A DNA stretch of 43,624 nucleotides, from positions 1-43,624 of IMG/VR virus record IMGVR_UViG_3300049460_000071. One strand, given 5' to 3'. The notes beneath the pieces were generated by a model, which was not told the DNA's origin, made no database searches, and saw nothing but the letters and a program-made list of their open reading frames with translations. Positions 5,073 through 43,624 of the stretch are shown here, piece by piece. Positions within the stretch are counted from its first letter, which is position 1; every line of letters starts with the position of its first letter. The translations under genes were made by a program, and so were the position numbers. This DNA is from a virus.

Positions 5073-5783
5073 CTATCCAGCTCTATAAAACTGTCTTCCA
5101 ATTACTCTAAAACTAGCACCATTATCAGCTGAAACAGTCTTATCTCTATATTTCGGATTAAGGCTGTGTAGAGTTAATTTCCCACCTTCTTCCTTGAAGA
5201 TCTGCTTCAACATTGCTTCACCTTCAAAGTAAACAGCATAGAACTCATTATCCCTAATTTCTGTGTCTGCTAAATCAATGGCGAACACATCCCCCGTACA
5301 CACATACGGCTCTTGTGAGTCGCCTTTTGCAAAAACAAGTTTTACATTTTCAGGCTTAACACCATGTTTTTTAAAAAACTGTGGAGGAAAATCACGCTTT
5401 TCAAGAACTTCATCATAATGAAATTCAATTGATTCCCCATCCCCACAGGCAAACCGTATATTCACCAAATCAATCCAAATTCTTTCGTCTTTTTCTTCTC
5501 CTGAGATTACCGTAACTTTCGGAGAGTTTTCAAGAATTTGACTTAAACTTTTGTCGGTATCTTCAACAGATTCACCAGTTCTCAACCAATATGGATCTAC
5601 ATTCAATACTTTAGCTATCTCAGCTAAGTGAGATGAACCGTGTTTTGCTGACTTTTCTAAATATGCATAAGAAGGCTGTTTCATTCCCACAGCTTCTGCA
5701 ACTTGTTTTTGTGATAGCCCAGCTTTTAAGCGTGATTCTTTCAATCTTTCAGATTGGGTGGACATGCTCTGAATCTCAAACAT
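5073..5783 (-). CDS. cI: CI/LexA-type phage repressor (HTH plus S24 peptidase domain)
   Basis: This is the lysogeny repressor. Its N-terminal XRE helix-turn-helix (RLKESRLKAGLSQKQVAEAV and following) would bind the ATAGAA..TTCTAT operators. The C-terminal S24 domain has the catalytic serine in GDSQEPYVCTGDVFAID and the general-base lysine in EAMLKQIF, so RecA-stimulated self-cleavage is expected. The linker segment FACGDGE is a possible cleavage site. The length (236 residues from the ATG at 5783) is normal. Another ATG at 5765 is possible, and neither has a strong ribosome binding site. It is divergent from the Cro-like gene and has its own terminator. Confidence 0.92.
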   Translation of the reverse strand: MFEIQSMSTQSERLKESRLKAGLSQKQVAEAVGMKQPSYAYLEKSAKHGSSHLAEIAKVLNVDPYWLRTGESVEDTDKSLSQILENSPKVTVISGEEKDERIWIDLVNIRFACGDGESIEFHYDEVLEKRDFPPQFFKKHGVKPENVKLVFAKGDSQEPYVCTGDVFAIDLADTEIRDNEFYAVYFEGEAMLKQIFKEEGGKLTLHSLNPKYRDKTVSADNGASFRVIGRQFYRAG

Positions 5784-5846
5784 ATAGATCGAACTCAATA
5801 ATATATAAACATTTCTATCACCTCAAATATTAATAGAAACAATAAA

Positions 5847-5898: not shown

Positions 5899-5924
5899 AG
5901 TCTATACATATAGAGGAGATGGTT

Positions 5925-6149
5925 ATGTCAACTAGCCAAATAGATGAGGTTGTTTCCTTCTTCGGCAGTCAGCGTAAAACAGCCACTGCCTTAGATATTA
6001 CCCAACCAACTGTTAATCACATGGTCTCTACTGGTCAGGTATCTGTTAAGTCAGCCTTGATCATTCAGAAGAGAACAAATGGGCAATTCAAAGCTTTGGA
6101 CTTATGTCCTGAATTAAAAAATTACTTTTCAGAATTAACTGTTGTTTAA
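5925..6149 (+). CDS. Cro/YdaS-like DNA-binding protein
   Basis: A 74-residue protein divergent from the repressor. The helix-turn-helix is visible in SQIDEVVSFFGSQRKTATAL followed by DITQPTVNHMVSTGQVSVKSA, the Cro/YdaS pattern in which a single short domain is the whole protein. The ATG at 5925 is preferred because TAGAGGAG lies 6 nt upstream; the ATG at 5919 is too close to that site. It is the first gene of the rightward operon and probably antagonises CI at the shared operators. Confidence 0.85.
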   Translation: MSTSQIDEVVSFFGSQRKTATALDITQPTVNHMVSTGQVSVKSALIIQKRTNGQFKALDLCPELKNYFSELTVV

Positions 6150-13252: not shown

Positions 13253-13329
13253 ACGCCATTCGTCTAATTGGATAAGACATCATAATTCTAGTGTGATTGA
13301 TGCGGGTTCGAGCCCTGCATGGCGTGCCA
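13253..13329 (+). tRNA. tRNA-Arg (anticodon TCT), CCA encoded
   Basis: The full cloverleaf is visible. The acceptor is ACGCCAT/ATGGCGT. The D stem GTCT/AGAC encloses AATTGGATA. The anticodon stem TCATA/TGTGA has the 7-nt loop ATTCTAG, giving anticodon TCT. The variable loop is 5 nt, the T arm is GCGGG-TTCGAGC-CCTGC, the discriminator is G and CCA is encoded. It should read AGA codons. It lies within the phage between the late promoter and the structural genes. Confidence 0.93.
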
Positions 13330-24087: not shown

Positions 24088-24483
24088 ATGGCAATGACAC
24101 TAGATCAAGCACGACAAGCCATAATCACTCGAGCATTGGCATTTACTAGAATAGCTCAAACTCGGATTAAATATCCAAATAAAGATTTTGCTGTGCCAGT
24201 TGATGGACTTTGGTGTGACATAAATATTTTATGGGGGCAGTCATTAATTGCAGCTATTGGAGATGATCCTTGCACACGCCGAACTGGGATTATTTCAATT
24301 AACTGTATGGCTCGCTTAAACACTCATGAAGTGGTAATCACTCAGCTTGCTGATGCTTGGCTAAGTCACTTTGAATATTTCTCAATCGGTCAATTAGAAA
24401 TACTACAAGGCCAAGTGCAGAACTTGGGGAATAACACAGACTTTGTTCAATATAATGTGTCCATTGGATATAGGGTGAATTGA
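24088..24483 (+). CDS. Tail terminator/completion protein (DUF4128-like)
   Basis: A 131-residue protein that begins MAMTLDQARQAIITRALAFT and has a central PVDGLWCDINILWGQSLIAA, then RTGIISINCMARL and VQYNVSIGYRV. This is typical of the small proteins that cap the tail tube in siphoviruses. The gene order (gp10-like, then this, then tube) supports the call. Confidence 0.75.
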   Translation: MAMTLDQARQAIITRALAFTRIAQTRIKYPNKDFAVPVDGLWCDINILWGQSLIAAIGDDPCTRRTGIISINCMARLNTHEVVITQLADAWLSHFEYFSIGQLEILQGQVQNLGNNTDFVQYNVSIGYRVN

Positions 24484-24484
24484 T

Positions 24485-24703
24485 ATGTCTTGCATGCTGA
24501 CATTAGAAGAAATTGAAATTAAACGCCAAGAACTTGAACGACACCTTTACAACATGATGGGTGCCGAACTTCAAAAATGGCAAAAAGAAAATAAACTTTG
24601 CATCTCTGATGTGAATATCCGACTTGCAAGCAATCACAGTCTAGGTGGTCCAAAACAAAACACTGTAACTGGTGTATCTGTGGATCTGGATTACAAGCCT
24701 TAA
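24485..24703 (+). CDS. Small hypothetical protein in the tail region
   Basis: A 72-residue protein with a helical N-terminus (LTLEEIEIKRQELERHLYNM) and a strand-like C-terminus (ISDVNIRLASNHS, VTGVSVDLDYKP). It is followed by several terminators. Unknown role; it may be host-related and not part of the virion. Confidence 0.6.
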   Translation: MSCMLTLEEIEIKRQELERHLYNMMGAELQKWQKENKLCISDVNIRLASNHSLGGPKQNTVTGVSVDLDYKP

Positions 24704-24734
24704 TCACACAAAAAATCTAATTCACTTTTAAACG

Positions 24735-24758
24735 AACCTGTCCTTTGCGGCAGGTTTT
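24735..24758 (+). terminator. Terminator before the C4/Rha module
   Basis: AACCTG and CAGGTT pair, with CC/GG pairs inside, and TTTTATTG follows. It is the first of two terminators that isolate the C4/rha unit from upstream tail transcription. Confidence 0.7.
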
Positions 24759-24816
24759 ATTGTTTTCAAACTAGGAAAAATGGACAAAAACCCATTTTTT
24801 CAACTGAAAGAATAAG

Positions 24817-24841
24817 CCTTGCAGCAATGCAGGGTTTTTTT
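24817..24841 (+). terminator. Second terminator before the C4/Rha module
   Basis: CCTTGCA and TGCAGGG pair around GCAA and a run of seven T follows. Another weak A/T-rich hairpin (AAAAATGG/CCATTTTT) lies between this and the first terminator at about 24776-24799. Confidence 0.82.
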
Positions 24842-24844
24842 GTT

Positions 24845-24859
24845 GCCTGAAATTCAGGC
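24845..24859. repeat. Palindrome upstream of the C4 RNA
   Basis: GCCTGAA and TTCAGGC are 7-bp arms around one base. It could be a hairpin in the RNA or a protein-binding site that controls the module. Confidence 0.5.
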
Positions 24860-24925
24860 GAACACTGGCTAGGTTGATCCCCGAAAAGCACACTTTTCAT
24901 GTTCAGTGTGCCTGCCAGTTCTTTT
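24860..24925 (+). ncRNA. C4-type antisense RNA controlling the Rha gene
   Basis: An outer stem ACTGGC (24864-24869)/GCCAGT (24914-24919) encloses GCTAGGTTGATCCCCGAAAA and an inner stem GCACAC (24888-24893)/GTGTGC (24906-24911). The inner loop contains CATGTTCA (24898-24905), which is exactly complementary to TGAACATG (24929-24936) just before the rha ribosome binding site. This matches the known C4 RNA of phages P1/P7, which is cut from the antirepressor transcript and pairs near its start to block it. The core GGTTGATCCCCGAAAAG resembles the C4 consensus as I remember it. Confidence 0.72.
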
Positions 24926-24956
24926 CTTTGAACATGAGCAAGTAAGAGGAAATCTT

Positions 24957-25487
24957 ATGAACATGATGACAACATTGAATTTACGGGCTTTGGTTACTAA
25001 TGATAATGGTGAACCAAAGACTACAAGTTATGCCGTTGCTGAAGCATTTGGGAAACGACACTCTGATGTGCTTCGATCAATAAAAAATATGAAGTGCTCT
25101 ACAAAGTTCCGTGAGCGCAATTTTGCGTTTACCTTAGAAAACAAGAAGATAGGGAATACTAAGCGTCAAACAGGCTTTTACCAAATGACAGAACGGGGCT
25201 TTATGTTCCTCGTTATGGGCTTCAATGGTGAGAAAGCTGATGCAATTAAAGAACAATTCATTGATGCATTTGAGTGGATGGCTAACCAATTAAGCCAAGC
25301 ATTCCAGTCTAAGTGGGCTCGTTATAACCACGTTACTCATGAGTACAAAACAAGAAAAGAACATATTAGCTGCTCAGCACGTGATATGCGCGCGTGGCGT
25401 GATGATAAGCCAGTCTATGAGAGCGAAATCTCACAATTAGAAATAGAACTTCAGCCTTCACTTCTTCCTCTAAAGGGTGGCATTTGA
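24957..25487 (+). CDS. Rha-family phage regulatory protein/antirepressor-like
   Basis: A 176-residue protein with the Rha domain: SYAVAEAFGKRHSDVLRSIK, FRERNFAFTLEN, TKRQTGFYQMTERGFMFLVM and AIKEQFIDAFEWMANQL, about residues 20-115. Rha proteins regulate phage development and are related to antirepressor N-termini. The C-terminal 60 residues vary (KWARYNHVTHEYKTRKEHIS). The start at 24957 follows AAGAGGAAA. The gene lies within the tail genes, is framed by terminators and is preceded by a C4-type RNA, so it is probably kept silent in the prophage. It could antagonise the CI repressor; the target is unknown. Confidence 0.88.
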   Translation: MNMMTTLNLRALVTNDNGEPKTTSYAVAEAFGKRHSDVLRSIKNMKCSTKFRERNFAFTLENKKIGNTKRQTGFYQMTERGFMFLVMGFNGEKADAIKEQFIDAFEWMANQLSQAFQSKWARYNHVTHEYKTRKEHISCSARDMRAWRDDKPVYESEISQLEIELQPSLLPLKGGI

Positions 25488-25513
25488 AATGTGACCCTTA
25501 ATAAACAAACCAC

Positions 25514-25535
25514 GCCCTCAATTCGAGGGCTTTTT
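25514..25535 (+). terminator. Terminator after the Rha gene
   Basis: GCCCTC and GAGGGC pair around AATTC and TTTTT follows, then AATGCC. It closes the C4-rha cassette. Confidence 0.87.
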
Positions 25536-25820: not shown

Positions 25821-25844
25821 ACCACCTTTCGAGGTGGTTTTTTT
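25821..25844 (+). terminator. Second of two tandem terminators
   Basis: ACCACCT and AGGTGGT pair around TTCG and seven T follow. It is 20 bp after the previous terminator and just before the tail tube gene. Confidence 0.9.
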
Positions 25845-25866
25845 ATGCCTAACAGGAGTAAAAGCC

Positions 25867-26796
25867 ATGTCGAGTGGTGCAAAAATCCGCCTCTATTATG
25901 CAGAGGAACAAACACCTGAAGTATTGCCAACAACGCCAGTGTGGAAAACCGTTCGTCGCGTGACTGATGGTTTAACCGAAAACGTTACAACTGAAACCTC
26001 TACAAGTGTTGCAGATACACGCTTCCGTCAAGGTGGCATGGCTACTGAAGCAGAAATCACAGGTTCATTAGAAGTTGAGTTGTCTATTGGCTTGTTTGAT
26101 GACTTCTTATCTGGTGTTGCGCTTAACAACTGGGACAGTGACGTACTAAACTTCGGTGGAGATGTTCGTAAAACATTTACCTTTGTTAAAGTCTATTCTG
26201 ATATTAACCAAGTCTTTATTTATCGTGGTGTTCGCATTAATGAGTTCACGATGTCGATCGCTACCACTGGCAAAATTACAGCAACGTTTGGCTTGATGGG
26301 CACTTTATTTGAACGAACCACAACAAGCCCTGTAGTGATTCCTCTTCCAGTTCCTGAAACTGTACTTGTATCAGCGTTGAACGTTGGCGATTTAACAGTA
26401 AATGGTGAAACGGTGGTTGGTACGGCTTGTATGCAATCGCTTGAACTTACTATCAACAACAATATGGAAGCAATTCGCTGTATTGGCTCTAAGAAGCTCA
26501 CAGCAACGACATATCTCGAAAAGATTGTCGACATTACCTTGAACACTCAATACATGTTCTCGGCGCAATCTGCGGGCTATATCGACTTCATCAAATCTCG
26601 TGACACGATGCCAATTAACTTCTCAATCGAAGATAAAGACGGCAATGGTTATGCCTTCGAGTTCCCAAAACTTGAAGTAGCTGAAGCTAATCACCCTGAT
26701 GGTGGTGGTGAGGATACCATCACAATCGACATCAACTACAACCATATCCGTGTTTCACCAATCATTACCCGTGTGATTGCACCTGTAACGCCTTAA
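25867..26796 (+). CDS. Major tail tube protein
   Basis: A 309-residue beta-rich protein. The start MSSGAKIRLYYAEEQTPEVL is followed by TPVWKTVRRVTDGLTEN and repeated strand segments (TFTFVKVYSDINQVFIYRGV, INEFTMSIATTGKITATFGL), the layout of siphovirus tube proteins. The C-terminal third (SIEDKDGNGYAFEFPKLEVA) may be an added outer domain. The ATG at 25867 has GGAG upstream. It is followed by the two chaperone frames, as in lambda V-G-T. Confidence 0.88.
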   Translation: MSSGAKIRLYYAEEQTPEVLPTTPVWKTVRRVTDGLTENVTTETSTSVADTRFRQGGMATEAEITGSLEVELSIGLFDDFLSGVALNNWDSDVLNFGGDVRKTFTFVKVYSDINQVFIYRGVRINEFTMSIATTGKITATFGLMGTLFERTTTSPVVIPLPVPETVLVSALNVGDLTVNGETVVGTACMQSLELTINNNMEAIRCIGSKKLTATTYLEKIVDITLNTQYMFSAQSAGYIDFIKSRDTMPINFSIEDKDGNGYAFEFPKLEVAEANHPDGGGEDTITIDINYNHIRVSPIITRVIAPVTP

Positions 26797-41142: not shown

Positions 41143-41333
41143 ATGTCTACACAGCTAATCAAGATCTTTAAAAATGGAGCACTAACTTTGTAGATTTACC
41201 AGCCGAGCTTGATAAAAATGGAGAGGTGACAAAAATTTATGACTATAGTGGCAATGAATTAAAAATTAATTTCCTTCGAGATGAAGTTTATTATAAGGGC
41301 ATCTGGTGCCAGTTTCAGAGGAAACAGCACTAA
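41143..41333 (+). pseudogene. Small gene broken by a one-base slip
   Basis: An ATG at 41143 with AAAAGGAGAG upstream reads MSTQLIKIFKNGALTL and stops. The -1 frame (41172-41333) carries a coherent continuation, WSTNFVDLPAELDKNGEVTK, IYDYSGNELKINFLRDEVYY and KGIWCQFQRKQH. One extra A in the A5 tract at 41170-41174 would join them into a 63-residue protein. It overlaps the end of the integrase gene (convergent) by 4 bp. Either a mutation, a sequencing error or phase variation explains it; I see no programmed slippery site in the right phase. Function unknown. Confidence 0.7.
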
Positions 41334-42553
41334 TCCGCCCAACTGTCTACAATATCTGCCCAGTCTTGCATCATTATTCTACGCTCATCTAAATAGAGGG
41401 CATGGTTATAAGTATCTCTAATTTTGTTTTTATCTACATGAGCCAGCTGCAATTCAATATGATCAGAAGGGTAGCCAAGTCCATGCAAAATGGTTGAAGC
41501 AGTAGCACGAAAATCATGTGCAGTCAGATCATCAAAACCCATTGATGCAAGAGCACTATTAATTGAAGACTTATTCATAAGCTTATTTAGATTAAACACA
41601 CTAGAGAAGACATACTTTCCAGTTCCGGTCTGTGAGAGTTGATCAATCAATATAGCCTTCACTTGTTTGGACATAGGAATGATATGCTCCCTATTCATTT
41701 TGATATTCCGTTGCCCTGAATTTAGTTGCTCCTTTGAAGCTGGAGGGATCCTAATTAGATCATCTTCAAAATTCATCCACTCCCATTGAAGTCGGGTAAC
41801 TTCAACAGATCTGAGCATCGAATAAATTAGAATCAAAATACTATTTTTAGTAGTTGCAGCACCTTTATAATTTGTAAATCTATCCCAAAAAACACCTTTT
41901 TCTACATCAGACATAGGGCGCGCACCTTCTTTAGCAGGTCGCTCAATTGTATTTTTAAGTGCCGAGATAGGATTTTGCTCACAACGCGATGTGGCAATTG
42001 CATAATCAAGGATTTGACTAGTAATTTGTCTATTTAAAATTGCGGTCGCTTCACCAGTACCAAAGTTAGATTGTTTTCTTATTCTGGCTACAGTCTTTTT
42101 TTGCATCTGAAGAACATCAAATGCTGTAATATTTTTAATGTCTTTATTGCCGAGACTTGGAAAAAGGTCTTTCTCGAATGCAGTTTCAACAGCACGTCGA
42201 TAACTAACTGAACGCTTTTCTTTTCTGCCTTCATACCATTCTTTGGCGATATTTTTAAAGAGACATATCTCTGTTAATAGAGCTTTAGCCTTATCTTCCT
42301 GTCTTTGCTGAGAAGGATCTAAATTTTGGCTAAGAAGAGTTTTTTGATCTTGGGCTAGCTTTCTTGCTTGCGCCAATGTCACAATGGGATACTCACCAAG
42401 ACTTATCATCTTGGCAGCTCCAAGAAACCGATAACGGAAGCGCCAAAACTTTGAGCCATTCGTACGGACCTCAATACAAAGCCCCGCTTGGTCAGCAACA
42501 CGATAAGACTTATCTTTTGGTTTTAATTGCTTAATTTTAGTGTCATTGAGCAT
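41330..42553 (-). CDS. int: Tyrosine recombinase/integrase (DUF4102 type)
   Basis: A 407-residue protein that inserts and excises the prophage. The N-terminal arm-binding domain (LNDTKIKQLKPKDKSYRVAD, then FRYRFLGAAKMISLGEYPIV) is DUF4102, as in P4-type integrases. A core-binding domain follows (about 100-190). The catalytic domain has the first arginine in YSMLRSVEVTRLQWE, then HDFRATASTILHGLG (H-x-x-R), LAHVDKN and the nucleophile tyrosine in DTYNHALYLDERR. No good ribosome binding site precedes the ATG. An arm-type half site (42558-42566) lies just upstream, so integrase may control its own transcription. Confidence 0.95.
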   Translation of the reverse strand: MLNDTKIKQLKPKDKSYRVADQAGLCIEVRTNGSKFWRFRYRFLGAAKMISLGEYPIVTLAQARKLAQDQKTLLSQNLDPSQQRQEDKAKALLTEICLFKNIAKEWYEGRKEKRSVSYRRAVETAFEKDLFPSLGNKDIKNITAFDVLQMQKKTVARIRKQSNFGTGEATAILNRQITSQILDYAIATSRCEQNPISALKNTIERPAKEGARPMSDVEKGVFWDRFTNYKGAATTKNSILILIYSMLRSVEVTRLQWEWMNFEDDLIRIPPASKEQLNSGQRNIKMNREHIIPMSKQVKAILIDQLSQTGTGKYVFSSVFNLNKLMNKSSINSALASMGFDDLTAHDFRATASTILHGLGYPSDHIELQLAHVDKNKIRDTYNHALYLDERRIMMQDWADIVDSWAD

Positions 42554-43042: not shown

Positions 43043-43624
43043 TTAAATCGCACGAGTGTTGTAAATCAGCCAGTCTAGAACCTCTCCAGATAAATGTTCA
43101 GCTAGTCTTTCTTGAACCATTTGGTGATAAGCATTTAGCCAGTCTTTCTCTTCATTGTTAAGCATATCAACAACGATACAGTCTAAATGGATTGGGCAAA
43201 GCGTAAGTGTTTCAAACTCCAAAAACTCACCATAAGTTTTTTCAAACCCTGAGTGAAGTCTGTTTGCAACCAGATTTTCAATACGAATGCCGTATTGTCC
43301 TTCATGGTATAAGCCCGGCTCGTTAGAAAGGATCATGCCCGCGCGTAGTTTGCTGTAGGCATGAATAGGCGCGTAATAAGAAAGAACTTGCGGCCCTTCA
43401 TGAACATTAAGCGCAAAGCCTACGCCGTGACCTGTTCCGTGTCGATAATCTAAACCATGTTGCCATAAGGTATGCCGACAAATTGAATCGAGTAGAGGAG
43501 CAGCTAAACCTTCTGGATAAATCGTTTTGGCCAAAGCAATATGACACTTTAAAACCAAGGTATAGTCACGTTTTTGTGGTTGCGTTGGCGTGCCTACTGG
43601 AACTACACGAGTAATATCTGTTGT
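43043..43624 (-). CDS. Xaa-Pro aminopeptidase (M24 family), C-terminal part, host gene
   Basis: This is the C-terminal 193 residues of a pita-bread metallopeptidase that removes N-terminal residues before proline. The gene enters from the right edge. Visible are the TDITR metal-site strand, the HGTGHGVG motif, SNEPGLY with a metal-binding glutamate, and GIRIENL. The final part (ETLTLCPIHLDCIVVDMLNN, WLNAYHQMVQERLAEHLSG) is the M24 C-terminal extension. It belongs to the host chromosome and lies outside attR. Confidence 0.92.
   Translation of the reverse strand, partial: TTDITRVVPVGTPTQPQKRDYTLVLKCHIALAKTIYPEGLAAPLLDSICRHTLWQHGLDYRHGTGHGVGFALNVHEGPQVLSYYAPIHAYSKLRAGMILSNEPGLYHEGQYGIRIENLVANRLHSGFEKTYGEFLEFETLTLCPIHLDCIVVDMLNNEEKDWLNAYHQMVQERLAEHLSGEVLDWLIYNTRAI

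Follow-up and report, generated by a model that had tools for sequence, protein, structure and literature searches.

The rha module in the tail operon

What keeps an antirepressor-like gene from being expressed at the wrong time when it lies among the tail genes of a temperate phage? The gene in question, rha, is carried by a 43,624-base virus record of an Acinetobacter-type temperate siphophage (this whole stretch of DNA is called the window below) with its structural genes on the + strand (Table 1). A preliminary description of the locus had proposed that rha is silenced by a C4 antisense RNA of the kind that controls ant in phages P1 and P7. The analysis presented here argues for a silencing RNA and places it in a different class.

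Table 1. Positions of the features of the window that are discussed in the text
Feature	Position	Strand	Remarks
CI-like S24 repressor	5073-5798	-	
Cro-like gene	5919-6149	+	
Tail terminator gene	24088-24483		phrog_179
72-aa gene	24485-24703		phrog_1707
Terminator-like hairpin, 5' of module	24734-24757	+	counterpart directly 5' of RNA in most relatives
Second upstream terminator-like hairpin	24814-24837	+	found in some relatives only
Short hairpin GCCTG-AAATT-CAGGC	24845-24859	+	directly 5' of RNA
int-alpA-like RNA element	24864-24919	+	model R1 44.1 bits, E 6.2e-10; RF02996 26.6 bits, below cut-off
Outer stem of RNA	24864-24869/24914-24919	+	
Conserved CTAG of RNA	24869-24872	+	
Conserved CGAAAAGC of RNA	24882-24889	+	
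Inner stem of RNA	24888-24894/24905-24911	+	
Pairing loop CATGTTCA	24898-24905	+	covaries with both targets
Target site 1, TGAACATG	24929-24936	+	
Hairpin with Shine-Dalgarno GGAAA in loop	24942-24958	+	z -2.82, window copy
AAGAGGAAA	24944-24952		followed by rha ATG at 24957
rha, 176 aa	24957-25487	+	PF09669 Phage_pRha and PF10549 ORF11CD3
Target site 2, TGAACATG over start codon	24958-24965	+	
Downstream terminator-like hairpin	25514-25530	+	
Tail tube gene	25834-26796		
Integrase	41330-42553	-	

The module consists, in order, of two terminator-like hairpins, the RNA element, rha and a further terminator-like hairpin. Its position inside the tail operon, between the phrog_179 and phrog_1707 genes on one side and the tail tube gene on the other, and the two terminators before and one after it are as the preliminary description had them; most relatives have one upstream terminator, against two in the window. 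The rha module looks like a moron-type cargo insertion into a late operon, because in phages TCUAN1 and AM106, which are without rha, the tail tube gene begins ~90-110 nt past the gene before it and the gap holds no annotated gene. The rha product matches PF09669 over the full length of the domain (92.5 bits; gathering cut-off 29.9), and its antirepressor role is a label taken from PHROG names. The phage also carries a tRNA-Arg (TCT) gene (13253-13329), and the end of a Peptidase M24 gene at the right end of the window, near the integrase (43043-43558, - strand), probably belongs to the host flank outside the attachment site.

An int-alpA-like RNA

The only sensible Rfam match to the window RNA is RF02996, the int-alpA RNA, which aligns over all 71 positions with 26.6 bits (E 4.0e-5), short of the curated cut-off of 35.8 bits. 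Relatives of the element, from phage qsb1 (35.9 bits) and A. towneri (37.6 bits), exceed that cut-off. Sub-threshold matches near the element to other Rfam families (Phe_leader, isrJ, Leu_leader and others) fall mostly on terminators and were taken as chance. When 50 of the 72 viral loci described below were searched with RF02996, all 50 matched, 42 of them above the cut-off, a result that is partly built in, the records having been found by sequence pattern or by their rha protein. Scanning for the exact core yielded 41 stretches, and a looser pattern at least 120.

A covariance model of our own, R1, was built from an alignment of 61 of 73 copies. The window copy and three Acinetobacter rha copies were deliberately kept out of the alignment, as were, by eye, eight odd or near-duplicate hairpins. 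In these 61 copies 91.6% of 853 cells are paired in the three-helix structure and 192 are changed on both sides, against 69.1% paired and 62 changed on both sides in shuffles; the search pattern had itself fixed part of the outer stem and, in the inner stem, the two outermost pairs. R1 finds the window RNA over all 56 positions (44.1 bits, E 6.2e-10), and since the model was built without that copy, the match ties the element to the class independently of its own sequence. By these comparisons the window RNA is a divergent relative of the int-alpA class: it has the three-helix fold, the CUAG and CGAAAAGC core and the size of RF02996, and departs from it in score and in its long inner stem and loop. 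It departs in location as well. The name int-alpA refers to a location between int and alpA, whereas the window RNA is sited between tail genes.

The nested stems noted in the preliminary description, outer and inner, agree with the family structure; the minimum-energy fold of 24860-24925, in contrast, re-pairs the inner stem, and in single-sequence folding the family inner stem has an ensemble probability of only ~0.05 in the window copy. The inner stem is therefore placed by comparison, and single-sequence folding, which did not yield it, was dropped as proof of structure. Past the outer stem comes a stretch rich in U. The short hairpin directly 5' of the RNA is kept, though varied, among Acinetobacter copies.

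One loop and two sites

The apical loop, CATGTTCA, is exactly complementary to TGAACATG ahead of the Shine-Dalgarno sequence, just as the preliminary description had observed. It had overlooked a second exact copy of TGAACATG, which lies over the rha start codon. On both strands of the window together 2.8 occurrences of this 8-mer are expected and five are present; for a 60-nt stretch of one strand the expectation is ~0.002, so that chance does not account for two copies next to the loop. The match of loop and target in the window is real.

The letters of loop and sites change together among 37 distinct Acinetobacter copies. In 23 the loop reads CATGTTC and GAACATG stands at both sites; in four, which may share one ancestor, CATATTC is accompanied by GAATATG at both. 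Two copies have mixed sites, tolerated by G-U pairs: CATGTTC with GAATATG and GAACATG in one, and with GAGCATG and GAATATG in the other. Ab105-2phi and the plasmid pANC7933.2 have longer loops with other letters and one G-U pair each (GACTGTTCATA with TATGAGCAGTC, and GACTATTCATT with AATGAGTAGTC).

The remaining eight of the 37 have no target within 60 nt. Copies that are target-free and retain an intact CATGTTCA loop were seen in records L003 (4028-4210), L005, L007, L013, L014, L015, L021, L028, L034, L035, L041, L042, L199 and L243. In these copies a second, terminator-like hairpin follows, with a loop, CTCGTTACC, that is complementary to GGTAACGAG at the ribosome-binding site of an antB-type gene (GGTGACGAG for L013 and L021); the second hairpins of L003, L007 and L013 have no match in Rfam. 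A search for rha elsewhere in target-free records matched in none of 12, several of them fragments, and was run without a positive control.

In A. towneri (L261, 3724-3860) the same RNA and target leader lie ahead of an AntB-like start instead of rha, a case that came from a comparison in which 5 of 12 loci could not be parsed. Because of it, RNA and leader seem to move between antirepressor genes as one.

The rha leader and how the RNA may act

Between the two sites lies the Shine-Dalgarno hairpin. In 64 of the 73 loci the stretch from site 1 to the start codon could be compared with shuffled sequences; it folds better than these (mean z -1.87, with 46 of 64 loci below -1), and the Shine-Dalgarno sequence is commonly in the loop of a hairpin. 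The distance from the RNA to site 1 is nearly constant (mean 12.9 nt, sd 1.6, in 43 of the 73 loci), tighter than that from site 1 to the start codon (sd 3.6), which is why site 1 is proposed to cap the loop in cis.

The fold of the RNA as drawn from covariation, its loop, both sites and the joint covariation of loop and sites are the part of the scheme that is read directly from aligned sequences. The rest is a proposal. On that proposal rha would be a phage cargo gene, antirepressor-like in kind, that carries its own RNA brake: a three-helix int-alpA-like RNA of roughly 56-75 nt within the rha leader, whose apical loop would pair with a short sequence that the same mRNA carries twice, once ~13 nt past the RNA and again on the start codon. 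Pairing at site 2 would shut out the ribosome and the gene would stay off; repression, rather than activation, is the presumed effect. In the full-length transcript site 1 would occupy the RNA's own loop in cis, and a short RNA freed from the leader would, in the manner of C4, act in trans on the full-length mRNA. A first transcript would thus be translatable, while a cell filled with the short RNA, such as a lysogen, would stay shut. We consider it likely that the element is a single-loop, two-site translational silencer in the rha leader, resembling C4 in its action and distinct from it in kind, and the RNA is probably a reusable brake on translation. That Rha would then relieve repression by CI was a guess of the preliminary description.

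Where the RNA comes from bears on all of this. No sigma-70-like promoter emerged from a search of the + strand from 24400 to 24960, and the gap between the upstream terminator and the RNA is no more than about 20-25 nt in most relatives. Since no promoter was found and the RNA begins so shortly past the terminator, either it is made only by read-through, as may be the case, or its promoter lies before the terminator. The two layers of immunity of the preliminary description (CI on the one hand and a silencing RNA on the other) are put forward here only as a hypothesis, because the search gave no promoter from which a lysogen would make the RNA. If read-through is its sole source, the immunity reading fails and a reading purely in cis wins.

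On that purely cis reading the leader is a switch in which the loop pairs either with site 1, leaving the ribosome site free, or with site 2, shutting it; late transcripts that read through would yield no cargo protein, and there would be no free small RNA and no immunity. We hold this to be possible rather than probable. It would suit several features: in loci with a target the RNA is placed directly 5' of it and on its strand; the distance from the RNA to site 1 is fixed; no promoter was found between terminator and RNA; and the targets are in many cases cargo genes, HNH nucleases for example. Yet target-free copies persist beside antB, and the similarly laid-out C4 of P1 works as a free, processed RNA according to Weiss et al. 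(2016; PMC5320573). Both points argue against action in cis only.

Loop and site matching across independent loci

Matching of the loop to the gene behind it recurs, with other letters, in more than 100 further phage loci. For each independent copy the apical loop, with one base on each side, was compared with the sequence downstream and the longest exact complement recorded; loops swapped between loci served as the control (200 swaps in the viral set). The viral set comprised 72 of 80 clusters, drawn from 89 distinct hairpins among 236 copies. At 5-25 nt after the RNA (site 1) it gave a mean length of 5.75 against 3.38 +/- 0.10 for swapped loops (maximum 3.62), and at 22-60 nt (the ribosome site) 5.12 against 3.89 +/- 0.11 (maximum 4.22); the control stretch at 60-98 nt gave 3.74 against 3.69. 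Complements of at least 5 nt were present at both sites in 48 of these 72 loci, and in 10 site 1 fell below 5 nt.

Two further sets behave alike. Among 29 of 31 loci from named genome contigs, which like the viral loci were picked out with a sequence pattern in which part of the stems is fixed, site 1 gave 5.10 (swapped, 3.26 +/- 0.17), the ribosome site 4.59 (3.88 +/- 0.16) and the control stretch 3.62 (3.52). The third set was found with the Rfam model only, in Pseudomonadota genomes: 60 places were fetched, 41 could be parsed and 19 could not, six were redundant, and the 35 used gave 5.77 against 4.24 +/- 0.20 at site 1, 5.60 against 4.45 +/- 0.17 at the ribosome site and 3.83 against 3.85 in the control stretch. 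In all three, then, the apical loop complements one site 11-16 nt downstream and another at the ribosome-binding site. Site 2 usually lies 9-17 nt 5' of the start codon, on the Shine-Dalgarno sequence; in Acinetobacter rha it is on the start codon. This covariation of loop and sites strongly supports an RNA loop that would silence an antirepressor-like gene at its ribosome-binding site.

It also makes it highly improbable that the element is a terminator or RNA-processing hairpin whose loop match is a by-product of loop bases complementary to Shine-Dalgarno sequences. The U-rich stretch after the outer stem would fit such a hairpin, and loops of the class are often complementary to GGAG-like sequence. 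Swapped loops, however, keep that base richness and yet stay far short of what is observed, at site 1 and at the ribosome site alike; there is no excess at 60-98 nt downstream; and the Acinetobacter loop CATGTTCA, which is not complementary to a Shine-Dalgarno sequence, nevertheless covaries with both sites.

Relation to C4 and to other phage antisense RNAs

C4 is a free RNA of ~77 nt, processed by RNase P, that represses translation. Like the window RNA, the C4 of P1 and P7 (also found in P4 and N15) lies directly 5' of an antirepressor operon and is complementary to its leader. The two also share pairing of loop to leader on the ribosome site and ahead of it, and their distances from the start codon are similar; in P1, C4 occupies 48343-48419, its targets a2 and b2 lie at 48423-48429 and 48452-48459, and icd begins at 48470. 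Sequence and fold are different. C4 has two loops, a' and b', directed at the different sites a2 and b2, whereas the window RNA has one loop and the same 8-mer twice. In C4, as described by Weiss et al. (2016; PMC5320573), b' covers the ribosome site and a' provides specificity.

The preliminary description had named a covariance search with the Rfam C4 model as the test of C4 identity. RF01695 gave no match in the window (membership threshold, 45 bits) and none in the 48 related records searched, which cover 48 of the 72 viral loci; P4, N15 and P1, as positive controls, all matched, and R1 in turn found nothing in P4 or N15. C4 family membership is ruled out on these grounds: judged by its covariance profile the window RNA is not a C4 member, and it resembles C4 in layout without belonging to the family. 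That it is a true C4 RNA after all, as its position, its target logic and the antirepressor-like gene behind it, all reminiscent of P1 c4-ant, had suggested, is improbable in the extreme in view of these searches and of one loop with a repeated site in place of two loops with two.

Other phage RNAs invite comparison. The Group 1 sRNAs of Acinetobacter baumannii, abundant phage-derived RNAs of antisense type, come from the same genus; Weiss et al. (2016; PMC5320573) report them as Rfam C4 matches, unlike the window RNA. P22 sar and the 24B_1 RNA of Phi24B are small RNAs of phages that are reported, or have been proposed, to reduce the synthesis of antirepressor; the likeness drawn to them follows the description in a review (PMC12197685), not fold or layout.

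What the int-alpA class may do

Literature searches, which covered titles and the beginnings of abstracts, found no published function for the int-alpA (RF02996) class, only a single table row. The genes behind its members include those of Rha, KilA-N, AntB, primosomal proteins and HNH nucleases. For 71 of the 73 loci the downstream protein was assigned to families, which overlap: DUF1376 (8), a primosomal PHROG (up to 9), HNH_3 (5), HNH (3), Rha (3), a methyltransferase family (3), and KilA-N, NUMOD4, GIY-YIG and others (1 each). With downstream families so diverse, the class is not tied to antirepressors. In a sample of 200 Pseudomonadota genomes, 42 have an RF02996 match, among them the known-positive centre genome. 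With strict filters R1 matched at least 8 of 119 Acinetobacter genomes, a minimum figure, since the known-positive centre was itself missed. In L140 (G013) and MW202426.1, two int-alpA-like copies stand in one phage record, possibly with two separate loop-target pairs.

We see an even chance that the int-alpA class as a whole consists of programmable brakes other than C4, and that its target-free copies provide superinfection immunity in trans against relatives that bear the target. If so, a fixed scaffold is combined with a freely changing loop and two matching sites on the gene behind it, and phages put this brake before antirepressors, replication genes and selfish nucleases. The corrected finding is in any case broader than that of the preliminary description: a probable class of loop-programmed RNA silencers in phages, of which the window holds a divergent relative. 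An orphan class of RNA, common among the prophages of proteobacteria, would gain a concrete and testable job. Since the loop names the target, one could read off the target of any copy by eye. The logic of C4 would have been reached by a second RNA scaffold unrelated to it, and the use of one loop with two identical sites begs for a mechanism. For the phages themselves, such a brake would offer a simple reason why cargo genes can be carried in late operons without being produced at the wrong time.
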